From positions 1 through 35,047 of IMG/VR virus record IMGVR_UViG_3300035703_000256: a stretch of DNA of 35,047 bases, one strand, 5' to 3'. The DNA comes from a virus. The notes under the pieces are model-generated. The model was not told the DNA's origin and made no database searches. It was given only the letters and a program-made list of their open reading frames with translations. The position numbers and the translations under genes are program-made. Below are positions 15,936 through 29,292 of this stretch, piece by piece; the first letter of the stretch is position 1; each line of letters begins with the position of its first letter.

Positions 15936-15969
15936 TTGCTAAATATGATATCGAGAGGTATCTTAGCAA
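15936..15969 (+). promoter_or_regulatory. Inverted repeat enclosing ribosome site and start of the MKSFTEF gene
   Basis: TTGCTAA (15936-15942) is inverted as TTAGCAA (15963-15969), and inside it GATA (15947-15950) pairs with TATC (15959-15962). The loop holds GAGAGG, and the right arm ends on the A of the ATG at 15969. The left arm carries the late promoter, so late RNA would lack it. Confidence 0.65.
15938..15945 (+). promoter_or_regulatory. T4-type late promoter GCTAAATA
   Basis: GCTAAATA stands 23 nt before the ATG at 15969. The predicted start near 15951 leaves a short leader with GAGAGG as ribosome site. Confidence 0.6.
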
Positions 15970-16535
15970 TGAAGAGCTTTACAGAATTCTTAACAGAATC
16001 AACTAAACAGTATAATTTCCGTATAAAAGTAGCTGGCACACTATCAGATGAGCAAGTTGATAGACTTGAATCAGCAATGGAAAAATGGGGTTTACAAAGC
16101 ATTAATAAACCAAAAGTAACCCCAATTCAAAAGCATCCAGTAGATTTTACTAATCTAAAAGAAATTGAAGTTAGCATTATGGATATGACGCTAGATTATC
16201 CGGCAACTCCACAAGAAATTATTGCTAGAATAGCAGAGTACTGCACACTAAATCCAGAGTATGTCAAAGTATTCAATAGCGATGATCCAAATGTAGCAGA
16301 GATGGAAGAACGTGCAGAGGAAGCAGAAGAAGAGTACGAAGTTCAACTTACTGCTCCATATCCAAAGAGCGATAAGAATCTTCCATATGGTGATAAGTTT
16401 AATCAAAAATTCCTTAAGGATCAAAAGCGTAAACCTGCATTTAAAGTAGCTGGCGGCAATACTTCAAAAGTTCAAAGCACTAATGATTTACCACAAGGTA
16501 AGTCAAGTCCAATTAGTGGTCGCAAAGGAAAATAA
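15969..16535 (+). CDS. Putative prohead core or internal head protein with capsid-targeting peptide
   Basis: I start at the ATG at 15969 because GAGAGG lies 8-11 nt upstream and because it yields MKSFTEFLTEST; an upstream TTG at 15936 lies inside the promoter. MKSFTEFLTE|S closely resembles the ten-residue capsid-targeting peptide of T4 internal proteins (MKTYQEFIAE), cut after (L/I)xE by the gp21 protease. The body, YNFRIKVAGTLSDEQVDRLE, QSINKPKVTPIQKHPVDF and EIEVSIMDMTLDYPATPQEI, is an alpha/beta domain I recall from marine phage head regions without an assigned function. After an acidic stretch AEEAEEEYE, residues from about 125 to 188 are Lys/Ser-rich and probably disordered. First gene of the accessory block. 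Confidence 0.65.
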   Translation: MKSFTEFLTESTKQYNFRIKVAGTLSDEQVDRLESAMEKWGLQSINKPKVTPIQKHPVDFTNLKEIEVSIMDMTLDYPATPQEIIARIAEYCTLNPEYVKVFNSDDPNVAEMEERAEEAEEEYEVQLTAPYPKSDKNLPYGDKFNQKFLKDQKRKPAFKVAGGNTSKVQSTNDLPQGKSSPISGRKGK

Positions 16536-16538
16536 TCT

Positions 16539-18509
16539 ATGAAAATTAATTCCAAATTAATGGGGTTTGCTGCTGGAACAAAAGTGTTGATGGCAGATGG
16601 AAAAGAAAAAGCAATTGAAGACATTAATGCTGGTGATGTTGTATTAAGCTTTAATCAACTTGATGCTTTTGGTGTTCTTGAACCTAAAAAAGTTTTAAAC
16701 ACTTATAAAAGATTAGATCGCAATCCACTTAAAGTAAAAGTTCATAACAGCGATATTGAGCTAACTGTAGCAGAAGGTCAGTTGTTTATTAATCCAGGAT
16801 CAGACTGGAAAAATGCTACTAACATTAATGAAATTATAGACGGCGAAGGCAACGTTCATAAGTTTGATGTAAGTAGAATTAGTAGAGGTAAGCACGCAAT
16901 ATACGACATTATTGTTGAAGATAACCACAGCTTGATTGCTAATGGTGTGCGTGTACACAACATGACTTATAGTATTGCTGATGTAATTGCTGGTCGTAAC
17001 TTAGCCGGTAGTGATATACAGTCTGGTCCAATCGGTAATTACAATTACAGAGGGGATTACGATAACAATAATAGAAATTATTCACAAGGCAATAGTAAAA
17101 AGAAAAAATCAAATAAAAGAAAAAACATTAAACCAGAACCAAAAATTGATGGATTACAAGCTGGTGCAAAGCTATTATCAAGCATTGAAGATTTAACTGA
17201 TCTGTTAAGTGAGATTATTGATGAAACAACCCCAGCAAACTTAACTATACTTAAACTTGTTGTACAACAAAGTGTAGACAACATTGTTAATTATCTTGCA
17301 AGTTTTGGTGCAAGCATACTAAACGCAACAATGTCTGCATACGATAAATCAGAAATATTAGTAATGACAGCAGATATGACACAAGCTGCTGTTGCTATGC
17401 GTAAACCATTTGAAGAAACAGTTGTAAGCGCAAGCGGTAAATTAATTGCTGCAACACAACTAAAATTGTTTGAATTACAAATTGCGCGTATGAATGGTAT
17501 ATTAGAAACATACTTAGGTCCTGCAGAAGCAGATGAGAAATTATTTGATGTTAATAGAGATGGACAAGATGTGTCTGGGTCTAAAAGCAGAAAAAATGCA
17601 AATTCAAGAAGTAATGATGGGCGTTATGGATCTAGCGGTGGAAACAATAGATCTAGCGGTGGATCTAGTGGAAACAACAGATCAATCGGAAAAACTACTG
17701 GCGGCGGGCCTGCTCCAGCAAAAAATACAAAAGTAGGTGGTCCAACTCAAAAAGTAAAATCTCCTGCAGGACCAAGTAAAGCCCCAACACCAACAGCAAG
17801 ACCTCAAGGGTTAAGCAGGCCTGTTGGCAGCCCAAGCAACCTACGCTCTGATTCAGCAGCAGGTTTAAGAGCTGGCGGGGGTGTTCAATCGCCAAATCAA
17901 ACAGGACCAAATAAAGGATTAGGTTCAGTTGGTAGTACAGCTAAAACTGGAATGGCAAGCCAAGGTGCAAGTTATAGCGGACCAGCAAGTGCAGGTGCAG
18001 CTCAAAAAGCACAAGCTCAATCTAGAGCAACAGCAAATGCTAGAGCAGCAGCTACAAGTTCAGCAACTAGAAATTCTTCTAACTTCTGTTTTGCTTACGG
18101 AACAATGTTTAAAATGGCAGATGGCAGCTTAAAAGCAATACAAGATATACAAGTTGGTGATAACATGTTGTTAGGCGGACGAGTCACAACAACAATGATT
18201 TCTGATGGCATGCTAGAAGATTGGTATATCTACAACGGTGTAAAATTAACTGGTTCGCATCCTGTACTTGACAGAGACGGTGTATGGAAAAAAGTTTACG
18301 AAACAGATATAGCTATACCAACAACACAAGAGGAACTAAACTATATCTTAATCAACGAAAATCACAAGATGATTTCACACAACGGCGAAATATTTACTGA
18401 TTATTTCATGGTAGGTATGGAAAATCAAATTAGAGCTGAAATGTATCATAGGGATTTTGATAATATGTTTAGAATACTAAACAATCAACCAGTAATGAGA
18501 GAATCATAA
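16539..18509 (+). CDS. Hint-domain protein A, with N-terminal and C-terminal Hint modules
   Basis: 656 residues. Module 1, residues 9-141, runs from GFAAGTKVLMADGKEKAIED through GDVVLSF and ISRGKHAIYDIIVEDNHSLI to ANGVRVHN. It is a Hint (hedgehog/intein) fold, but the first residue is Gly9 instead of Cys and the block-B His is replaced (AEGQLF). His140-Asn141 at the end are kept, followed by Met142. Residues 205-335 form a helical domain (LLSSIEDLTDLLSEIIDETT). Residues 345-510 are Gly/Ser/Pro/Ala-rich and disordered. Module 2 starts C517-FAYGTMFKMADGSLKAI and has GSHPVLD with H574; it keeps the N-terminal catalytic pair but I see no clear terminal block. The gene starts 3 nt after its neighbour with AAAGGA. 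The role is unknown; it is probably virion-associated. Confidence 0.75.
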   Translation: MKINSKLMGFAAGTKVLMADGKEKAIEDINAGDVVLSFNQLDAFGVLEPKKVLNTYKRLDRNPLKVKVHNSDIELTVAEGQLFINPGSDWKNATNINEIIDGEGNVHKFDVSRISRGKHAIYDIIVEDNHSLIANGVRVHNMTYSIADVIAGRNLAGSDIQSGPIGNYNYRGDYDNNNRNYSQGNSKKKKSNKRKNIKPEPKIDGLQAGAKLLSSIEDLTDLLSEIIDETTPANLTILKLVVQQSVDNIVNYLASFGASILNATMSAYDKSEILVMTADMTQAAVAMRKPFEETVVSASGKLIAATQLKLFELQIARMNGILETYLGPAEADEKLFDVNRDGQDVSGSKSRKNANSRSNDGRYGSSGGNNRSSGGSSGNNRSIGKTTGGGPAPAKNTKVGGPTQKVKSPAGPSKAPTPTARPQGLSRPVGSPSNLRSDSAAGLRAGGGVQSPNQTGPNKGLGSVGSTAKTGMASQGASYSGPASAGAAQKAQAQSRATANARAAATSSATRNSSNFCFAYGTMFKMADGSLKAIQDIQVGDNMLLGGRVTTTMISDGMLEDWYIYNGVKLTGSHPVLDRDGVWKKVYETDIAIPTTQEELNYILINENHKMISHNGEIFTDYFMVGMENQIRAEMYHRDFDNMFRILNNQPVMRES

Positions 18510-18679
18510 TGGGCATAGAAATTATAAATATTAAACGTAGACCTAGTTCAGGTGGAGGAAAAGCAAACGGTACCAGCGGTGCTAAAACTAACACCCACAC
18601 TGTACGGGCAGAAGATTTGAGGATACATAAACCAATAGTAGGTCAAGGTGGACTTAGTATGGTATTAAAGTTAAAGTAA
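18509..18679 (+). CDS. Small protein between the two Hint genes (56 aa)
   Basis: ATG at 18509 overlaps the stop of Hint protein A as TAATG. The product starts MGIEIINIKRRPSSGGGKAN, has a Gly/Thr/Lys linker, and ends IHKPIVGQGGLSMVLKLK. Basic and short, no membrane segment. The tight coupling on one side and the ribosome site of the next gene on the other (TAAGGGGAAAG) support a real gene; it may work with the Hint proteins. Family not recognised. Confidence 0.6.
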   Translation: MGIEIINIKRRPSSGGGKANGTSGAKTNTHTVRAEDLRIHKPIVGQGGLSMVLKLK

Positions 18680-18689
18680 GGGGAAAGAA

Positions 18690-20045
18690 ATGATAAACGC
18701 ACAAGTAGTTGGATTTGCAGAAGGTACGCCAATATTAATGGCAGATGGTACTTGGAAAGCAATTGAACAAGTAAAGCAGGGTGATTGGGTTATGAGTTTT
18801 GATCCAAAAATTGAAAATAGCCCCTTAGAACCACAAAAAGTTGTTGATACAGTATCAACGATGCACAGAGATTGTATTGAGATACATGCCAATGGAAAAG
18901 TTACAATTGTAGCAAAAAACCAATTATTCTTTACCCCTGGAGCAAATTGGGCACCTGGTTACGAAACAAAGCAAATTATAGATTACTCAGGTTACGCACA
19001 AAATATTCAAACTCGTAAGGTGCGCGGCGGAAAGTTTAAAGTTTTTGATCTGCAGGTTGAAAAAACACACAGTTTAGTAGCCAATGATCTTAGAGTACAC
19101 AACTTTATATTTGGATTATTTGGTATTACAATTAAAAGAAAAGTAGTTCAAAGACCTCAACCAGTTGTAACTGCTGGTAAACCAGGTAAACCAGTAAGTG
19201 TTACTACAACTACAAATGGCAGAACAACTACTGTAGTTGTAAACCCAAGTCCAGGTAGCAGTGGTCAAATTAGTGTAGGCGCAAGCGGTCAAATTAGTGT
19301 TCGTCAAAATGCAGTTCCTGGTCTTCCAATAAGTGAATACGCTTATTATCAACCACCGGTAGTATTACCATATCCTGGTGGTAGTTATGTACATGATCGT
19401 GCGCTAAATGCTGAAATTATTCGTAGCAGTGTTTGCGGGAATATACTAGATAAAGGCAACAACTATCGTGTTACAAGAAATGATGAAATTGCATGGGAAG
19501 CTGAAATCGATACTATGATTGCTGAACTTAACACAATCAAAGATTTAAGAGTTCCAGTATATACTGGTCCATATAGAACTGGTACTGGTACGTTTATAAG
19601 AAGAGACACAACGTCTATCAATGATGCAATTAATGCTGCTCAAGCTCTTAAAAGAGAAATACGCGCAGGTCGCAGGGTCTCAACCGGTGTGATCAGACAA
19701 AACTGTGATAAGATTGCAAGTATTATAAACAGAGTAAGAACTAGTGTACCTGATATTAGCAATCCTGTTGTTATTATACCAGGTTCTCCTCCTGCTCGAC
19801 CAGTAGTAGTAGTACCAGGTCCAAGTAACTATCACACAGATAGAATTTATGAAGATGATGCAAACTATAGTTATATGCTACGTTTAGCAAGTGGTTGCTC
19901 ATATGTATATGATCCACCAAATGCTCCAGCAAATACTAAAATTAGATATTACAAGCACTGGGATCCAGTTGCCAACAAGTATTATTATGACCGTGTAAGC
20001 AGTGGTGCAACTTGTACTACTTTTGGCGGAAACACTCAGGCTTAA
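18690..20045 (+). CDS. Hint-domain protein B
   Basis: 451 residues. Residues 8-138 form a Hint module paralogous to module 1 of protein A: GFAEGTPILMADGTWKAIEQ, GDWVMSF, VRGGKFKVFDLQVEKTHSLV and ANDLRVHN. The same changes occur: Gly8 instead of Cys1, KNQLFF instead of the block-B His motif, His137-Asn138 kept, then Phe139. The rest differs from protein A: a Thr/Val/Pro-rich linker (150-230), a middle domain with RVTRNDEIAWEAEIDTMIAE and SINDAINAAQALKREIRAG, and an end rich in Tyr and Pro with KIRYYKHWDPVANKYYYDRV. If Asn138 cyclises, the protein would be cut there. Ribosome site AAGGGGAAAG. Function unknown, probably structural. Confidence 0.75.
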   Translation: MINAQVVGFAEGTPILMADGTWKAIEQVKQGDWVMSFDPKIENSPLEPQKVVDTVSTMHRDCIEIHANGKVTIVAKNQLFFTPGANWAPGYETKQIIDYSGYAQNIQTRKVRGGKFKVFDLQVEKTHSLVANDLRVHNFIFGLFGITIKRKVVQRPQPVVTAGKPGKPVSVTTTTNGRTTTVVVNPSPGSSGQISVGASGQISVRQNAVPGLPISEYAYYQPPVVLPYPGGSYVHDRALNAEIIRSSVCGNILDKGNNYRVTRNDEIAWEAEIDTMIAELNTIKDLRVPVYTGPYRTGTGTFIRRDTTSINDAINAAQALKREIRAGRRVSTGVIRQNCDKIASIINRVRTSVPDISNPVVIIPGSPPARPVVVVPGPSNYHTDRIYEDDANYSYMLRLASGCSYVYDPPNAPANTKIRYYKHWDPVANKYYYDRVSSGATCTTFGGNTQA

Positions 20046-20056
20046 GGAAAATATAA

Positions 20057-20776
20057 ATGGATATGAAATCATTATTAGATAAGATGACTCAACTGTCACA
20101 AGTTGACGAAGCAAAACCAGACTTTCTTGATTTAGATAAAGATGGAGACAAGAAAGAACCTATGTCAAAAGCCGCTAAAGAAAAAGGCGATGGCAAAGAC
20201 GATAAGAAAAAAGTAGATGAAACTTCAGAAAAGATGTTGTCTAAAATGAAAGACAACGACTTAATGAAACATCGTCGCGATGCGAAAGCAGATGCTAAAA
20301 AAGAAAAAGAAGATAAAAAAGTAGATGAAGCAATTGCTATTCAAGCTGATGGCAATGAAGCAATGGCACTACTTGATATTCTTAAGTTAGCAGGTCGCCC
20401 AGAACCACAACCAATGACAATGGGTGGATGCGGCATGACAGAAGCTGATAGAGATCCAACTTATGCCAATTCTCCAGATGAAATGGTAGCTGATATGGAT
20501 GCTGCTGTTCCAAGTGGTAACGACATGCATCGTGAAAAAGATAGTTGGCGTGCTGCCGCTGGTGCAGATAACCCAATGATTGCACAAATGGAAGGCAAGC
20601 TTGCTAAGATGTTTGAATCTTTGTCAAAAGAAGATGATGATGAGGATGATGACGACGAATGGTATGATGCAAAAGGTAAAAGATCTAAGAGCGGTGCATA
20701 TGATGCAGGTGGGCACTATCATGCTGATCGCGATGCAGATAAAGTAAAAGCAACATTTTCATCTAAAAAGAAATAA
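20057..20776 (+). CDS. Highly charged scaffold-like protein with DxDxDG motif
   Basis: 239 residues, dominated by Lys, Asp and Glu with low hydrophobicity, as in T4 scaffold gp22 and internal proteins. Near the start FLDLDKDGDKKEPMSKAAK contains D25-x-D27-x-D29-G30, an EF-hand or dockerin-type calcium loop pattern that I recall from marine T4-like phages. Three VDE sites (16-18 before Ala19, 53-55 before Thr, 89-91 before Ala92) resemble prohead-protease sites. LLDILKLAG at 105-113 is a short hydrophobic motif shared with two genes downstream. The end has a poly-acidic run DDDEDDDDEWYDA. Ribosome site AAGGA. It is likely to be present in the prohead, but this is inference. Confidence 0.6.
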   Translation: MDMKSLLDKMTQLSQVDEAKPDFLDLDKDGDKKEPMSKAAKEKGDGKDDKKKVDETSEKMLSKMKDNDLMKHRRDAKADAKKEKEDKKVDEAIAIQADGNEAMALLDILKLAGRPEPQPMTMGGCGMTEADRDPTYANSPDEMVADMDAAVPSGNDMHREKDSWRAAAGADNPMIAQMEGKLAKMFESLSKEDDDEDDDDEWYDAKGKRSKSGAYDAGGHYHADRDADKVKATFSSKKK

Positions 20777-20788
20777 GGATCTTACTCA

Positions 20789-22153
20789 ATGAGTCTTAAA
20801 AAGTACTTAACAGAGGCTGAACTAGCAGCCGTTCAGCCCATAACTGGTGACGCATTTGACATCAGTATTAGAGAACTTACTAATATTGAAACTGTAGTAG
20901 TTGAGCATACTGAAGGTAGTATCACTATACAGTTAGATGATACTGCTATTAAGATGTTAGAAGAATGCGGTTGTACTTTTGAAGATGAACAACTTGATGA
21001 ACTTGCGCCAGTAATTGGCGCATTAGCACGTGGCGTTGCTGCTGGAGCAGGTGCTCTCGCTAGAGGTGCTGCTAAAGCTGCCGTTGGTACTGGGGTTAAG
21101 GCTGCTGCTGATAAGTTGGATAAAAAACTGTTTGGTCCTCGTCCTAGCGAAGGTGATTATGAATATGAAGAATCTGTTCGCGAGCAAGACGAAGATGAAG
21201 AAGACTATAGTCCACAAGTAGGTGATATAGTACAAGTAGTATACGAAACAGAACATGAAGGGCACTACGGCGAAGTTGTTGAATTAGCACCAAGCGGCGA
21301 ATGGGCTTATGTTCAATTTAAAGACGGTGATATTGAAGCATATCATGGAAGCGATCTTCGTCAAGCAACTGAACAAGAGGAAGAAGAATACTACTATGGT
21401 TCAGAAGATGAATTTGAAGAAAGCTTAAACTCTATCCGTAAACTTTCAGGTATGGCACCAAAAGAAGCAGTAAAGGAAGAAAGTTACGATAAATCATCTG
21501 GCAGTCCATATGATCGCGGCGCTGCTGATAGCTATTACGGAAGAAAAGCTCGCCCACATAAAATGGTCCCAGCTAGTGACGGTGTAAAAGGTCAGATGCA
21601 AATGGTATCATTAACTGATCCAAAAGAAATTGCTGCTTATAATGCTGGTTATAGCGAAAATGATGACCGTAAAAACTACGGCGAAGGTATTGAAGATTGG
21701 AATATGAAGGTTACATCAATACCACGTACAGAACCATTTCAACTTAAGAAGATTGTTGTTAAGTCAAAATTTGGCAAAACTTATACATTTGACACAGAAG
21801 AAGATGCTCGCAGGCATTTTGGTAGCAACTGGGATTCAAAGATTAATAATCCAGAATGGCGTGCAGCAAATGGCTGGAAACTGGAAATGAATAATACTAA
21901 GCCAGTAGATGAAGCAGAATACCGTGGTCGTAAGGTATCACTCGGTAAACCAATGCAAGGCGATGTCGCTAAGTTTAAAGTATATGTAAAAGACCCAAAA
22001 ACTGGTAATGTAAAGAAGGTCAACTTTGGTGACAAAACTATGCGTATTAAAAAAAGCAATCCAAAGCGCCGTAAGAGTTTCCGTGCAAGACATCGTTGTA
22101 AAAATCCCGGTCCTAGAACAAAAGCTCGTTACTGGTCATGCAGAGCTTGGTAA
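20789..22153 (+). CDS. Putative head-internal protein with KOW-like domain, 454 aa
   Basis: The start MSLKKYLTE|A fits a capsid-targeting peptide with an LTE|A protease site. Residues 72-112 are an Ala/Gly-rich amphipathic segment (GALARGVAAGAGALARGAAK). Residues 142-190 (PQVGDIVQVVYETEHEGHYG, then EVVELAPSGEWAYVQFKDGD) look like a KOW or Tudor-type SH3 barrel. LNSIRKLSG at 213-221 is the shared short motif. The C-terminal end FRARHRCKNPGPRTK, ARYWSCRAW, with two Cys and two Trp, is a pattern I recall from marine T4-like phage proteins of unknown role. The stop overlaps the GIY-YIG gene as TAATG. Confidence 0.65.
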   Translation: MSLKKYLTEAELAAVQPITGDAFDISIRELTNIETVVVEHTEGSITIQLDDTAIKMLEECGCTFEDEQLDELAPVIGALARGVAAGAGALARGAAKAAVGTGVKAAADKLDKKLFGPRPSEGDYEYEESVREQDEDEEDYSPQVGDIVQVVYETEHEGHYGEVVELAPSGEWAYVQFKDGDIEAYHGSDLRQATEQEEEEYYYGSEDEFEESLNSIRKLSGMAPKEAVKEESYDKSSGSPYDRGAADSYYGRKARPHKMVPASDGVKGQMQMVSLTDPKEIAAYNAGYSENDDRKNYGEGIEDWNMKVTSIPRTEPFQLKKIVVKSKFGKTYTFDTEEDARRHFGSNWDSKINNPEWRAANGWKLEMNNTKPVDEAEYRGRKVSLGKPMQGDVAKFKVYVKDPKTGNVKKVNFGDKTMRIKKSNPKRRKSFRARHRCKNPGPRTKARYWSCRAW

Positions 22154-22761
22154 TGAATTACATTATCTATAAAATTCAAAACAATATAAACGGCAAATAT
22201 TACATTGGACGACACGCGACTAAAAACACACATGATTCATACATGGGAAGCGGTCGTGGAATTAGAAATGCTATTTCTAAATATGGAATAGAAAATTTTA
22301 CTAAAGAAATTATTGCTGTTGCAGACAGCGCAGAAAAACTATGGGAATTAGAAAAAGAAATAGTAAATGAAGATGTAGTTAAAGATCCAATGTCATATAA
22401 TGTAGCCTACGGTGGTAAACATTATTTGCACGGGCTAAAAGAATACAACTACGATGCATTTATTGAACACCAAAGAAAAGCAGGTCAATCTTACGCAAAA
22501 AATTTTAAAGGTAAGGAAAAGCAGTGGCATCAAAAAGGTGGAGCAACCTCTTCCCGTATGAGAAGCGAACAATACATTTACAAAATTACAACTAATATTG
22601 GCGAAGAATTTATTGTAAACGGTATACAATTTAAAGAACTGTGTAAAGAAAAAGAGTGGAATTATAATACGCTTCATTGGAAACAAAGTATAGGCAGAAT
22701 TATTGCTAAAGGAAAACATAAAGGATTTCTTGTAGAACAAATAAGTAGTTACAGGAAGTAA
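22153..22761 (+). CDS. GIY-YIG family endonuclease (Seg-like)
   Basis: 202 residues from ATG 22153, which overlaps the previous stop; an in-frame ATG at 22138 lies within the upstream gene. The domain starts YIIYKI (3-8) and KYYIGRH (15-21), the GIY and YIG elements, then SYMGSGRGIRNAISKYGIEN and the segment AEKLWELEKEIVNED with the expected Glu helix, and NVAYGGKHYLHG. The C-terminal third (VNGIQFKELCKEKEWNYNTL) looks like a helix-turn-helix DNA-binding part as in NUMOD-bearing homing enzymes. Probably a free-standing homing endonuclease that cuts phage DNA lacking the gene and spreads it by repair. Confidence 0.8.
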   Translation: MNYIIYKIQNNINGKYYIGRHATKNTHDSYMGSGRGIRNAISKYGIENFTKEIIAVADSAEKLWELEKEIVNEDVVKDPMSYNVAYGGKHYLHGLKEYNYDAFIEHQRKAGQSYAKNFKGKEKQWHQKGGATSSRMRSEQYIYKITTNIGEEFIVNGIQFKELCKEKEWNYNTLHWKQSIGRIIAKGKHKGFLVEQISSYRK

Positions 22762-22762
22762 A

Positions 22763-23110
22763 ATGCGAGCAAAAGATTTCATAACTGAGGAAAGCAGAGG
22801 CATAGAACCATATGATGAAAAGCGTCTCGCTAACATCATGGTGTTGCCAGATATTGATCAGTTTTATGATTTCTATCGCTTTATGATTGCCGTTGCGTGC
22901 AGTCCAGAAACACCTTCTCCTGATAATGATTTAAACAATCGCCCCGCTGCTGTAGCATACACACTAGAAGATGAAAAGAAGCTAAAGCACGCTCTGAAAT
23001 TAATGAGCAAGACGGGTAAATGGATGGCAAGTGGGGAAGCACACGAACCAAATGACACAAGTGTAGTAAGCCCAGTTGCTAAAATAAAAAAGAATAAGTA
23101 CGGAGTATAA
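22763..23110 (+). CDS. Small putative head-internal protein, 115 aa
   Basis: Starts MRAKDFITE|ESRG, again a short N-terminal peptide ending in an (I)xE site. The rest, RLANIMVLPDIDQFYDFYRF, MIAVACSPE and EDEKKLKHALKLMSKTGKWM, is a compact helical protein. No family is recognised. Ribosome site AGGAAG just upstream; the gene begins 2 nt after the endonuclease stop. The N-terminal resemblance to neighbours is the main clue to location. Confidence 0.6.
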   Translation: MRAKDFITEESRGIEPYDEKRLANIMVLPDIDQFYDFYRFMIAVACSPETPSPDNDLNNRPAAVAYTLEDEKKLKHALKLMSKTGKWMASGEAHEPNDTSVVSPVAKIKKNKYGV

Positions 23111-23112
23111 CC

Positions 23113-23874
23113 GTGCTACTTAACGAATTATTTTTACAAGAAGATAACGCTGAGATGAGAGATCTTATGGCAGTTGCGTATTATCTTTCACGTTGGTTTG
23201 CTAGTCCTAAGTATGATGGATTAGCCAAAAAGTATTCTTTAACAATAAAAGAAATTGAAAAAATATTTGGCGAACCTGCTCCTAAGATACAAACAAAATC
23301 AGTAAACTGGTTATTGTTTAAAGAATTTCCAGGTGAATCTTATGAACCGCTAAGATTTATTGCTAACCATCCAAATCTTGTTGGCAAACATGATTTTGGT
23401 GGATATACACCTCCACCGCATTATATAGTAGCAATTAATACAGATCTTCTTACTAAAAGAGGAAAAACAACAGCAAGCACATTACTACACGAACTTGATC
23501 ACGCATTAATAGATTTAAAGAGTCGCGGACAAGCGATGGGTAATTATGCGACCCCAACAGACAAAGATTCTTACAAAGTCTATCTTCAACACCCAATGGA
23601 AGTTAATGCACGCTTTGCACAATCTCTTTGGGACTTAGCAGTAAGATACGATAAGATTTCAAAAGACAACTTACTTCCAACTATTAAAAATGTTTTTAAT
23701 GCTAACCAAATTAATCAAGAAGTTATAACAGATCCTAAAAAGTATAAAAGACTCATTGTTAGGTCATATAAGTTTTTAGATGATGTTGGTCAAATTATTG
23801 ATATTAAGAAAACAGATAAACCTACATTTGTACAACGTGTAAAGAATTTAATTAGAAAGTGGTTACCGCAATGA
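23113..23874 (+). CDS. HExxH metallopeptidase-like protein with capsid-targeting-type N-terminus
   Basis: 253 residues from GTG 23113 with CGGAG upstream. Residues 121-135 read ASTLLHELDHALIDL, a zinc-binding HExxH motif (H126, E127, H130). A candidate third ligand is E163 in HPMEVNARFAQ, 33 residues after H130, a gluzincin-like spacing. The N-terminus MLLNELFLQE|D carries an LQE site. The segment HYIVAINTDLL before the motif would be the usual edge strand. C-terminal KPTFVQRVKNLIRKWLPQ is an amphipathic basic helix. A head-borne protease delivered with DNA, or one working in head maturation, is possible; activity cannot be told from sequence. ATGA overlap with the next gene. Confidence 0.6.
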   Translation: MLLNELFLQEDNAEMRDLMAVAYYLSRWFASPKYDGLAKKYSLTIKEIEKIFGEPAPKIQTKSVNWLLFKEFPGESYEPLRFIANHPNLVGKHDFGGYTPPPHYIVAINTDLLTKRGKTTASTLLHELDHALIDLKSRGQAMGNYATPTDKDSYKVYLQHPMEVNARFAQSLWDLAVRYDKISKDNLLPTIKNVFNANQINQEVITDPKKYKRLIVRSYKFLDDVGQIIDIKKTDKPTFVQRVKNLIRKWLPQ

Positions 23875-24314
23875 GAGATTTGATTGATATTATTGATGGC
23901 AAAAAATTAAATGAATCGCAGCAACTAAATGAATGGGCATTTTTACTTCCAGCAATTGCTGCCGCAGCGCGTGTTGGTGCGCCTGCACTAGGGAGATTTT
24001 TGTTTGGACAAACAATTAAACAAGCACCAAAGATCGCAGGAAAAGCTGCTGTAGGTGCTGGTAAAGTTTTACTAAAAAATCCAGGTAAGGCAGTCGCTGC
24101 TGCTGGCGGTTATTATGTGTATAAGACTGTAGACGAGGCAATAACTGCTATAACTGATTTAGTTGGAACTCTTTTAGATGCAACTACAATTAAAGCATTA
24201 GCTTTAGTTGTAATTAAGTATTCAATTCCTGTTGCTGCTTTAATCGCAATATTGTACGGTGGTAAGATATTGCACGACTACATGAATCAAGCAGAACAAC
24301 CAACAAATGGATGA
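23871..24314 (+). CDS. Ala/Gly-rich membrane-associated protein with (L)NE sites, 147 aa
   Basis: I choose ATG 23871 (ATGA overlap with the previous stop) over GTG 23859. The start MRDLIDIIDGKKLNE|SQQ, then LNE|W, gives two (L)xE sites at residues 15 and 21. Residues 22-75 are Ala/Gly/Lys-rich and amphipathic (AIAAAARVGAPALGRFLFGQ). A hydrophobic stretch at about 107-131 (TIKALALVVIKYSIPVAALI) could cross a membrane. Such a make-up suits a protein that is packaged and later inserts in the host membrane during DNA entry, but this is speculative. Family not recognised. Confidence 0.6.
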   Translation: MRDLIDIIDGKKLNESQQLNEWAFLLPAIAAAARVGAPALGRFLFGQTIKQAPKIAGKAAVGAGKVLLKNPGKAVAAAGGYYVYKTVDEAITAITDLVGTLLDATTIKALALVVIKYSIPVAALIAILYGGKILHDYMNQAEQPTNG

Positions 24315-24507
24315 TTTAGATCAGTTAAAGCGTTTAGCAGGTATTGGCAATAGACCAAATTGGACTGCTTATGAAGGAATTAATATCTCAGTGTCGGGAA
24401 CAGAAAAGGCTCAACTTCAGCGTGAGCATAAAATTGAGCCTGGAACACAGGAGTGGTTCAAACTTTGGTTCTCTCTTCCATACTTAACTGGAGAGAAACC
24501 TATTTAA
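24307..24507 (+). CDS. Small hypothetical protein, 66 aa
   Basis: Overlaps the previous gene by 8 nt. The start MDDLDQLKRLAGIGNRPNW carries the short motif LDQLKRLAG that also occurs in the genes at 20057 and 20789. The rest, GTEKAQLQREHKIEPGTQEW and FKLWFSLPYLTGEKP, is a compact domain with several aromatics. The 3' end overlaps the convergent HNH gene by 8 nt. No function known. Confidence 0.6.
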   Translation: MDDLDQLKRLAGIGNRPNWTAYEGINISVSGTEKAQLQREHKIEPGTQEWFKLWFSLPYLTGEKPI

Positions 24508-25021
24508 GTTGTTCAATATATGGGCGCCAGCTTTCATGTTTAATATGAAAGTTAAGATGCTCAATGTTGTTATTGATCAAATGCCATACTTCAGGTTTAA
24601 ATGGTAAACGGCGAGGTTGTACCATCTTGTTACCCTTCTTGAAGTTACAATCACCACAAGCAGCAACAACGTTTGTCCACTCAGTCTTGCCACCCTTACT
24701 TACTGGAACAACGTGGTCAATAGTAAGTTCATGTGCATCAAAACTATCACCGCAATATTGGCAAGTATAAAGATCACGTAAGTACAAGTTCTTACGAGAG
24801 AAACGAACTCCCTTCTTATACTTCATATACTCTTTTGTAATGGCTAATGCAGGAACGTTAATAGTCATGCTGGGACTGTGGACTTGCCAATTATCATATT
24901 CTTCAAGAATTGTAATACGGCCCATAAAGCTTAACTTAACAGCTTGCTGCCATGGAATTGTGCTCAATGGCAAATAGCTTAATGGTCTATAATCCGCGTT
25001 CAAAATTAAACAGTCACTCAC
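24500..25021 (-). CDS. HNH endonuclease
   Basis: 173 residues. I choose GTG 25021 because GGAG lies 6 nt upstream of it; a TTG four codons earlier is possible. The N-terminal part LILNADYRPLSYLPLSTIPW, QQAVKLSFMGRITILEEYD and PALAITKEYMKYKKGVRF matches a family of free-standing HNH proteins common in alphaproteobacteria and marine phages. The HNH core has C87-x2-C90, then LTIDHVVPVSKGGKTEWTNV with D102-H103 and N117, and C122-x2-C125 for structural zinc. Likely a DNA nicking or cutting enzyme; it may be mobile or assist packaging, as do HNH proteins encoded near terminase genes in other phages. Confidence 0.85.
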   Translation of the reverse strand: MSDCLILNADYRPLSYLPLSTIPWQQAVKLSFMGRITILEEYDNWQVHSPSMTINVPALAITKEYMKYKKGVRFSRKNLYLRDLYTCQYCGDSFDAHELTIDHVVPVSKGGKTEWTNVVAACGDCNFKKGNKMVQPRRLPFKPEVWHLINNNIEHLNFHIKHESWRPYIEQLK

Positions 25022-25031
25022 GACATTCTCC

Positions 25032-25044
25032 AATAAATATTTAC
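25032..25044. promoter_or_regulatory. Divergent late promoter on the palindrome TAAATATTTA
   Basis: Forward AATAAATA (25032-25039) ends five nt before the ATG at 25045. Reverse GTAAATA (25044-25038) reads toward the HNH gene, with a predicted start near 25032 and GGAG before GTG 25021. Both share the palindrome at 25034-25043, so one site could drive both strands. Confidence 0.55.
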
Positions 25045-26892: not shown

Positions 26893-29292
26893 ATGAAACC
26901 AGTTGATAAAACCAGCGAAGATTTATTTCAAAAACTACGTAGTCGTTTTAGTCCAGTAAGTATGGGCGACGAAAATGCTGATGAAACTGCTACTCCAGCA
27001 GATGCTCGTATCTTTAACTTTATGTATAAAGAAAATGGTGAAGAAATAGGGTACATCAGTATAAGCATAATTGATAACCGTAGTTTTAAAGTATATTACG
27101 GAACAGATCTAGTTGATCGTATTCAAAACAAGACCGACTGGTATAATTTATTAAAAGAATTACGAATGTTTGCCAAGCGTAATCTAATGAGCTTTGATGC
27201 AAGAGACCTTGCTAAAAATCAACTTGAACCAAGAGACTTTAAATTTATTAGTAGTCAAGATAAAACTTATAAGGAACATGAAGTGACTGTATCAGAAAGT
27301 GTAATGTTTGGTAGTCGTCGTAAGAGCTATCAAACAATGGAAAACGTAAAGATGATTGTAAATCATCGTAAGTCAATTGATGAAACAATCCCAGGCGCAC
27401 GCAGCCGCTATATTGAAAGCATCTACTTAGAGCGTGCTGACGGCGAACGTTACAAGTTCCCTTATAATTATCTAACTGGTGCACGAGCAATGGCACGTCA
27501 CGTTAATGAAGGTGGCAATCCATACGATGATATGGGTAAGCATATTGTTAACATGATCAAAGAAATGCGTGATCTTAGCAAGTTTGCACGCCGCACTAAG
27601 AAACATGCCATGGAAGATGAAAATGCTGGTGGAATTCGTAACAGCGTAGTTGAGCGTTTCCACAGCATGAAGAAGCAACTTGGTGCTATGAGTGTAAAAG
27701 AAGGATACGCTCGTTTTGTTGAAAACTTTAGCGCAGAAGAAGCACTTGTAGAAGACGATGCAATCAATCAAATCAAAGAAAGATTTACACAACAAGTATT
27801 CGATACACAGTTAGAAGATACGCTACCTGCTGTTATGAAAGCAATTAAGGAAGCACAAATGAAGCAAGTTGCTGAAGCAAACACAACAATTCCTAGTTTG
27901 ATTAAGAGCAGTCCACTTGTATTGCGTAAGGATGATGCTGCTGATAACATGTTCCGTACAACTAAGTTTACTGATGGTGCAGGATTGCTTGGATTTATTT
28001 TAAGTGATATCGCAAGTCGCGCTATTGGCGACAATGCAGATGAAATTGCTAACTTTGCTTCCGATGCAGCAGAACGTGTTCAAGATAAAGATTATGATCA
28101 AGGTGATAAGCAAACAGCAATGATGCTTGCCAAGAAGTATATGGATGATGTTAAGAAGATGACATCAGATCCAAGCTACAAAGATGAAGTTCGTATGGAT
28201 CCAAAAAACATCTACGGTAAGATGAAAAAGCGTGAAGGCGGTTTCCACGAATCAGAAGCTTACGAAGCATGGGCAAACGATTTAGTTCCAGAAAATAGCG
28301 TAAAAAAAAAGTTTGAAGCAACTACACAAGGTACAGTAGGCACACAAGGTACACAAGCGCCAGCAAATGTTGGACAGGCACTTCGTGATCCTAACTTACA
28401 AAAAGCCGCTAAAAATGTTAGTCGTGTAACACAAGCTGCTGGTATTAAAGCGCCTCCTAATCAAATTGCACAAGGCATGGCAGCACAAGCTACTGGTAAG
28501 ATGCCACCAAAACAAACTATGCAAACAATTGGTGGACTTGGTAATACAATTATGCAAGCCGCAGCAAGTGACCCACGTAAAGCAGCACAACTTACTGCTA
28601 TGATGAAGAAGATGGTTACACAAGGTAAGTTTGATGAAGATGCTGTTAGAAAAGTTTTAGAAGCACCAGCATCAACAGTAATCAACGATCCAAAAACAAA
28701 TACTTCAACAGTATTTAAAATACCAGGATCAACTCCAGCACAACCAAAAGGTATGCAGCAATGGCTTTATGGAACCGGACAAAATCAAACACCTTCCACT
28801 CCTGCTGCACCATCGCAAGTAAAACCAGCAACTCCAACAGCGCAGTTTGATAAAACACAAAGCGCAATGCCTGATATGGATGCAATGGTTGGTCAAGAAA
28901 AAGCAAAAGTAACACCAACTGCTCCATTAATAGGAAAAGATCCTGCTGTAGCAAAAGCGTTAGCAGCAAAAGGATTTGATCCAACAGGTAAAAAGATTAC
29001 AGCTATCCCAGCACAAGCTGGAGCAGCAAGAGCAAACATACCAACTGGTTCAATGCCTGCTGCTAAAATGCCTTCAATACCAACAAACACTGGTGCAGCT
29101 AAAGCAAACATACCAGTTGGATCAATGCCAGCAAGTACCGGATACACAGTTAAAGCAGGTGATAATTTAACTAATATTCTTAAAGGAAAAGGTATGGCAC
29201 CAACTCCAGACAACATAGCTAAGATCGCTAAATTGAGTGGAATTGCAAATCCTAATATGATCAAACCAGGTCAAACAATTAAATTCAATTAA
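26893..29292 (+). CDS. Large virion-type protein with C-terminal LysM domain, 799 aa
   Basis: The N-terminal 130 residues (RIFNFMYKENGEEIGYISIS, IIDNRSFKVYYGTDLV, WYNLLKELRMFAKRNLM) look like an alpha/beta domain. Residues 130-470 are mostly helical and charged, with NVKMIVNHRKSIDETIPGAR, RYIESIYLERADGERYKFPY and a long helix DLSKFARRTKKHAMEDE. Residues 470-750 are Ala/Pro/Gln/Thr-rich, including two copies of a unit like AARANIPTGSMPAAKMPS. The end GYTVKAGDNLTNILKGKG, followed by IAKIAKLSG and MIKPGQTIKFN, is a LysM peptidoglycan-binding domain. A structural protein that meets the cell wall during entry or release is plausible. Late promoter without ribosome site. Confidence 0.75.
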   Translation: MKPVDKTSEDLFQKLRSRFSPVSMGDENADETATPADARIFNFMYKENGEEIGYISISIIDNRSFKVYYGTDLVDRIQNKTDWYNLLKELRMFAKRNLMSFDARDLAKNQLEPRDFKFISSQDKTYKEHEVTVSESVMFGSRRKSYQTMENVKMIVNHRKSIDETIPGARSRYIESIYLERADGERYKFPYNYLTGARAMARHVNEGGNPYDDMGKHIVNMIKEMRDLSKFARRTKKHAMEDENAGGIRNSVVERFHSMKKQLGAMSVKEGYARFVENFSAEEALVEDDAINQIKERFTQQVFDTQLEDTLPAVMKAIKEAQMKQVAEANTTIPSLIKSSPLVLRKDDAADNMFRTTKFTDGAGLLGFILSDIASRAIGDNADEIANFASDAAERVQDKDYDQGDKQTAMMLAKKYMDDVKKMTSDPSYKDEVRMDPKNIYGKMKKREGGFHESEAYEAWANDLVPENSVKKKFEATTQGTVGTQGTQAPANVGQALRDPNLQKAAKNVSRVTQAAGIKAPPNQIAQGMAAQATGKMPPKQTMQTIGGLGNTIMQAAASDPRKAAQLTAMMKKMVTQGKFDEDAVRKVLEAPASTVINDPKTNTSTVFKIPGSTPAQPKGMQQWLYGTGQNQTPSTPAAPSQVKPATPTAQFDKTQSAMPDMDAMVGQEKAKVTPTAPLIGKDPAVAKALAAKGFDPTGKKITAIPAQAGAARANIPTGSMPAAKMPSIPTNTGAAKANIPVGSMPASTGYTVKAGDNLTNILKGKGMAPTPDNIAKIAKLSGIANPNMIKPGQTIKFN

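Follow-up and report, generated by a model that had tools for sequence, protein, structure and literature searches.

The 35,047-nucleotide window analyzed here, the linear IMG/VR record IMGVR_UViG_3300035703_000256, belongs to a jumbo myovirus of the T4 superfamily, and the gene block lying in it between a gp16-like gene and gp17 very likely encodes proteins that are packed into the prohead by means of a cleavable N-terminal tag. This N-terminal system is very probably the capsid-targeting route of T4. As proposed, the block from the gp4/gp16-like genes to gp17 would specify virion-internal proteins. The first 9–15 residues, a short helix with (L/I)xE at its end, would bind the assembling core and thereby bring the proteins 15969, 20789, 22763, 23113, and 23871 (genes are named here by their first position in the window) into the prohead, where a gp21-type S77 protease would cut past the Glu residue, as in T4, and free the mature protein within the head. 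We infer cleavage and packaging in the window phage, as well as the binding partner of the tag. Subsequent ejection of the cargo into the host may also occur, although we regard its chances as slightly below even.

Leader peptides and head-protein homologues

The first-pass annotation had proposed five short leaders ending in a gp21-type site. All five are present at the predicted starts with plausible ribosome-binding sites; the case is strong for 15969, 20789, and 22763, whereas 23113 and 23871 are convincing only when their orthologues are considered. The leaders of 15969, 20789, 22763, and 23871 satisfy L/I-x-E, and that of 23113 (10 residues, compared with 9 in 20789 and 22763) ends in L-Q-E. 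A motif-blind start caller agreed with the starts of 15969, 20789, 22763, and 23871, while for 23113 it favored an ATG at 23155 over the GTG. As two 23113 orthologues, MLINEITLKE/D (locus L002) and MLIEEITLQE/D (locus L215; the slash marks the predicted cut), align from residue 1, the GTG start is supported. A position-specific scoring matrix of the tag, whose training set includes the window proteins, gave scores of 23.5 for 15969, 21.3 for 22763, and 11.0 for 20789 against a 0.1% null threshold of 6.7.

Similar peptides recur in related phages, where the first-pass annotation had suggested looking for them. In approximately 80 related IMG/VR loci, in which starts were called blind to the motif, the strict tag was found in 77 of 239 block open reading frames (ORFs) and in 3 of 637 other ORFs (shuffled expectation, 1.1 and 2.1, respectively; Fisher p ~5e-44, although the common ancestry of the loci makes the counts non-independent). 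The three hits outside the block, of the MRDLINILNE type, may be true tags as well. A looser rule, [FYILVWM][ILVFM]xE, was dropped because of its noisy background of about 6%.

No mutual similarity was seen among the families of 15969, 20789, and 22763, which keep the tag despite divergence to ~25–40% identity. The 15969 family, sampled by 25 IMG/VR members, shows no variation at M1 and E10 and almost none at F4, with Y/F7 and L8 as the usual residues. Mutational studies on T4 IPIII revealed that residues 4 and 7 act mainly in targeting and residues 8 and 10 in processing, and that Asp at position 10 stops cutting and spares targeting (PMC9026906); the 9-residue tags fit these key positions only if aligned from the Glu. 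The 15969 protein matches phrog_14802 (head and packaging, 9.8e-9) and phrog_2667 (internal head protein, 5.1e-6). Its structure model (predicted local distance difference test score, 69) contains a helix at residues 4–9 and a folded domain starting at residue 15; therefore, the predicted cut sits in a linker. Most matches of this model in a viral library seem to be members of its own family, Atu_ph07 included, and a weak match to “Ip7” of phage MX01 (E 1.5e-3, TM 0.26–0.40) was not used.

In the 20789 family, most of 26 distinct orthologue N-termini are tagged, with two tag types among them. Thirty-nine relatives of 22763 were labelled, and the complete ones almost all begin with MR/K-A/I-x-x-F/I-I/V-x-E; tblastn searches of named phages with 22763 and 24307 gave no match. 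The 23871 protein reads MRDLIDIIDGKKLNE/SQQLNEWAFLLPAIA and its orthologue in L215/L216 reads MKVNEVVNE/SQQLNEWAFLLPAIA, so that the pair is near-identical past the predicted cut and carries unlike tags before it. This apparent leader swap, together with the two tag types of 20789, is the pattern of a functional, replaceable leader.

Head precursors of related phages carry the same signature. Peptidase_S77 gp21 and gp23 are encoded in 10 of the 15 related records, among them all five complete named genomes; the other five records are fragments. The gp22 N-termini of protease-bearing relatives read MSKLDKFLKE/S, MLDAIKPLLE/S, and MTVKFEHILNE/Q, and the gp23 cut would lie in RFLVE/NASAGA or KMLAE/NATAGS, these gp22 and gp23 cuts being presumed, not measured. 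T4 precursors show a like pattern (gp22 MLKEQLIAE, gp24 MAKINELLRE, and gp23 SFLTE/A). In PA5oct, a small gene between the portal and gp67-like genes starts with MKINDIITE/G, nearly identical to the MKINEIITE found on block proteins of L015 and L036.

Virion data are available for PA5oct through the electrospray ionization tandem mass spectrometry (MS) notes carried by its record. The homologue of 15969 in this phage is MS-positive. So are all three top tag scores, gp333, gp246, and gp282, together with gp104 (MKILEFNLTE) and gp105 (MRLNEINLIE), and the scaffold gp22 is MS-negative, as expected of a removed scaffold. A tag score of at least 5, a threshold picked after the fact, is reached by 6 of 93 MS-positive proteins and 2 of 369 others (p = 0.001). 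A homologue of 15969 is present in 43 records of jumbo phages, GAP32-type and related, and the homologues in GAP32, CBB, RaK2, PBECO4, and 121Q are labelled structural.

Several observations weigh against the packing of the block proteins by a cleaved tag. When scored alone, 23113 (−3.9) and 23871 (−9.0) fall below the matrix threshold. Cutting is not universal, because E10 is lost in PA5oct gp282 (MKSFRDYYDA, which keeps positions 4 and 7 and is nevertheless detected in virions) and in Phosso, and is replaced by Asp in L039 and at the matching site in RaK2. Over the whole distribution, the tag score shows no significant shift with PA5oct MS status, and the strict rule shows no enrichment (2/93 compared with 4/369). 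The genes gp20–gp23 are absent from the window, which is a genome fragment, and the cut at the tag in the homologues is a predicted one.

The proposal of the first-pass annotation that these peptides serve packing thus gained from the enrichment, the positional match to T4, the tag exchange, the gp21/gp22/gp23 motif, and the virion-detected homologues, but lost the internal cleavage sites that it had assigned to the charged protein 20057. The three VDE sites are present (amino acids 16, 53, and 89), and all have V at P3. As the T4 head protease cleaves at L/I-x-E (PMC9026906) and the 20057 family lacks an N-terminal tag, these sites are weak and were rejected.

Scaffold-tail motif and alternative explanations

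A second motif, [LIMV]xxL[AS]G[ILVM] (LAG motif), marks untagged families of the block and its surroundings. It is present in 32/34 members of the 20057 family, in 51/59 of the 24307 family (always near the N-terminus), and in 52/71 of the family encoded after gp17 (26893), of which 49 have it in their final 15 residues; the 26893 protein matches phrog_13484 (virion structural, 3.6e-17), with weak endolysin profiles over 734–797. In contrast, the motif is near-absent from the tagged families of 15969 (1/45) and 22763 (0/39), and none was found in sheath, tube1, SSB, and UvsX. The extreme C-terminus of the scaffold gp22 is a LAG motif in the clade members checked (ELRRLAGLK, DLKRLAGIKK, and ELDVLSGINKK), and neither T4 gp22 nor that of cyanophage S-RIM2 ends in one. 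The LAG-bearing block proteins may therefore be suspected of docking at the place where the scaffold tail docks.

These observations can be read as two entry codes and an inner body, with the tags complemented by scaffold-tail docking through the LAG motif, an idea that extends the packing by leader peptides more than it opposes it and that we put forward tentatively, with odds well short of even. Tagged and LAG proteins would jointly build the axial inner body of 121Q and phAPEC6 heads. An axial inner body is present in 121Q (PMC5646251) and phAPEC6 (PMC7247149); one imaging study of six jumbo phages revealed it in 121Q only (PMC5646251). The split of the motif between untagged and tagged families and its place at the gp22 end favor the idea, as do the co-occurrence of the gene block and an inner body in 121Q (PMC5646251) and the fact that the inner-body proteins of phAPEC6 have not yet been identified (PMC7247149). 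On the other hand, docking and localization of the LAG proteins are deduced from sequence, 5 of 28 members of the 20789 family carry the tag plus a LAG-like motif, the gp22 end is weaker in Munch, XaC1, and a Vibrio phage (Munch and XaC1 retain only AGI), and chance matches occur, such as those in the window dNMP kinase (8314) and the LysM-like end of 26893, both rejected as unrelated. It is rather unlikely that the carriers of either code, including enzymes (metallopeptidase-like here, GH19 and nucleotidyltransferase-like in relatives), not only form the inner body but also reach the host cell with it. The block is a natural candidate for the inner body of 121Q-type heads.

An assembly-only role, in which the tagged proteins form a core that sizes or nucleates the large head and is later degraded or lost, is improbable. 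The tag is indeed found on core genes as well (gp22 and the small gene beside the portal), proteolysis clears most of the core proteins in T4 (PMC9026906), and the PA5oct scaffold is missing from the MS data; however, several tagged PA5oct proteins and the 15969 homologues are detected in or annotated to virions, and enzyme-like domains on tagged proteins would not be expected for a pure scaffold. Very improbable is the notion that the shared N-termini play no part in targeting and stem only from one leader that was duplicated, or from AT-rich starts of low complexity: many small tagged proteins are diverged 22763 paralogues and AT-rich codons favor K, I, and E, but the 77 strict hits contrast with 1 from shuffles and with the scarcity elsewhere in the loci, the 15969 family, elsewhere ~30% identical, has few invariant residues, one of which is E10, and unlike leaders precede identical post-cut residues.

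Gene content of the block and its surroundings

The gene order of the window is sheath, tube genes, a gp4-like TnsA-type nuclease gene (15007), the gp16-like gene (15468), the block (Table 1), and gp17 (25293). The window gp17 is 54.8% identical to that of PA5oct, ~49% to those of Atu_ph07 and Phosso, and 42–43% to those of CBB- and 121Q-type phages; a megablast search of the window against phages found no near relative.

Table 1. Coordinates of block features in the window (slash, predicted cut)
Feature	Position	Strand	Remarks
Internal-head-protein homologue, 188 aa	15969..16535	+	Tag MKSFTEFLTE/S at 15969-15998
Charged linker-like protein, without N-terminal tag	20057..20776	+	LAG-type ILKLAGR at 20378-20398
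454-aa protein	20789..22153	+	Tag MSLKKYLTE/A at 20789-20815; LAG-like IRKLSGM at 21434-21454; C-terminal ARYWSCRAW module
Small protein	22763..23110	+	Tag MRAKDFITE/E at 22763-22789; C-terminus AKIKKNKYGV
Putative zinc metallopeptidase	23113..23874	+	GTG start; leader MLLNELFLQE/D at 23113-23142
Putative metallopeptidase motifs of 23113	HELDHA ~23488; HPMEVNA 23590-23610	+	Conserved, as is the leader, in three orthologues
Hydrophobic 147-aa protein	23871..24314	+	Leader MRDLIDIIDGKKLNE/S at 23871-23915
66-aa protein	24307..24507	+	N-terminal scaffold-tail-like motif LKRLAGI at 24325-24345
Head protein family, gene after gp17	26893..29292	+	Members usually end in LAG motif; window copy has LysM-like end

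The 23113 protein is likely a zinc metallopeptidase, because the motifs HELDHA and HPMEVNA are conserved; the general forms HELxH and HPxExNAR, the latter a candidate for the downstream acidic ligand, occur in 3/3 orthologues. No peptidase family was given to it, as neither a Pfam match nor a PDB fold match (with a low-confidence AF2 model) was obtained, and a viral-contig scan gave no additional relative. Enzyme cargo would fit delivery into the host, by analogy with T4 Alt.

Tag-like starts were also observed at a distance from the block in related phages, on a 300-aa protein without a Pfam match (L115/L116, G006:84164-85066), a small HExxH protein (L118, G006:130407-130790), a GH19 protein (L122/L123, G006:219303-220124; 5.8e-9), and a CTP_transf_like protein (L158, G005:162479-163873; 3e-8). 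The 22763 module ending in AKIKKNKYGV is fused to a nucleotidyltransferase-like domain in L227:294-1307 and L256:3254-4309, with the leader MKLRELFE or MRLRELFE. The C-terminus of 20789 matches phrog_7595, and this KSFRARHRC...ARYWSCRAW module is likewise found at the end of proteins from Pelagibacter, Roseobacter, Flavobacterium, and Methylophilales phages, which show no match to 20789 outside it.

Several further genes were noted. The proteins of 16539-18509 and 18690-20045 both open with a Hint-like domain, matched by Hom_end_hint at 1.5e-12 in the former. In both domains, another residue apparently stands in for the usual first Cys (GFAAGT and GFAEGT); close to its C-terminus, the former protein carries another Hint-like domain, which retains the Cys (CFAYGT), and genes similar to the pair are found in L002, L003, and L005. 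A GIY-YIG homing endonuclease gene (22138-22761; phrog_314, 7.9e-31) lies between 20789 and 22763 and is absent at this position in L002. An HNH-endonuclease-like gene (24500-25033, minus strand) directly precedes gp17, and many relatives keep such a gene. The strongly repetitive stretch at 75-851 is probably a collagen-like fibre gene, read there in another frame.

Relation to known systems and implications

T4 IPI, IPII, IPIII, and Alt (PMC9026906) share with the block proteins the N-terminal (L/I)xE leader with hydrophobic residues at positions 4, 7, and 8 and E10, unrelated mature parts behind like leaders, and an S77 protease, found here in relatives. The window system differs in that its block lies between the gp16-like gene and gp17 and holds more cargo families, no sequence match of the block to T4 internal proteins or Alt being found; in turn, T4 lacks the scaffold-tail motif seen in block neighbors. 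The structural block of GAP32, CBB, RaK2, and 121Q (GAP32_204-208 and 121Q gp557-561) likewise follows gp4 and the gp16-like gene and shares the homologous first gene, LAG in a later gene, and virion or structural annotation; however, it has fewer evident tagged genes and is located apart from gp17, and the window lineage adds the HINT proteins, the metallopeptidase-like protein, and the small tagged proteins. In the inner body and ejection proteins of phiKZ/SPN3US, many large-head proteins are likewise cut after xxE by a gp21-related protease, although the SPN3US motif is A-x-E (PMC5694885); phAPEC6, of the window's wider clade, shows no similarity to phiKZ inner-body proteins (PMC7247149).

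A review suggested that T4-like phages load varied cargo via capsid targeting (PMC9026906). The first-pass annotation had considered such a set not described for this phage type, which is too broad, since the annotations of jumbo phages already list some homologues as virion or structural proteins; the tags and the adjoining scaffold-tail motif were not found in the literature searched. Within that literature, three things appear to be new: how far the tag extends in uncultured T4-superfamily jumbo phages, its exchange at the cut, and the motif shared with the scaffold tail. The inner-body proteins of phAPEC6 and 121Q heads are still to be identified (PMC7247149, PMC5646251), and, judging from the scaffold-tail motif, these phages may have another way of loading proteins that is missing in T4. 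As jumbo phage genomes are mostly without annotation, a readable head-entry tag would allow virion cargo to be listed from sequence alone.
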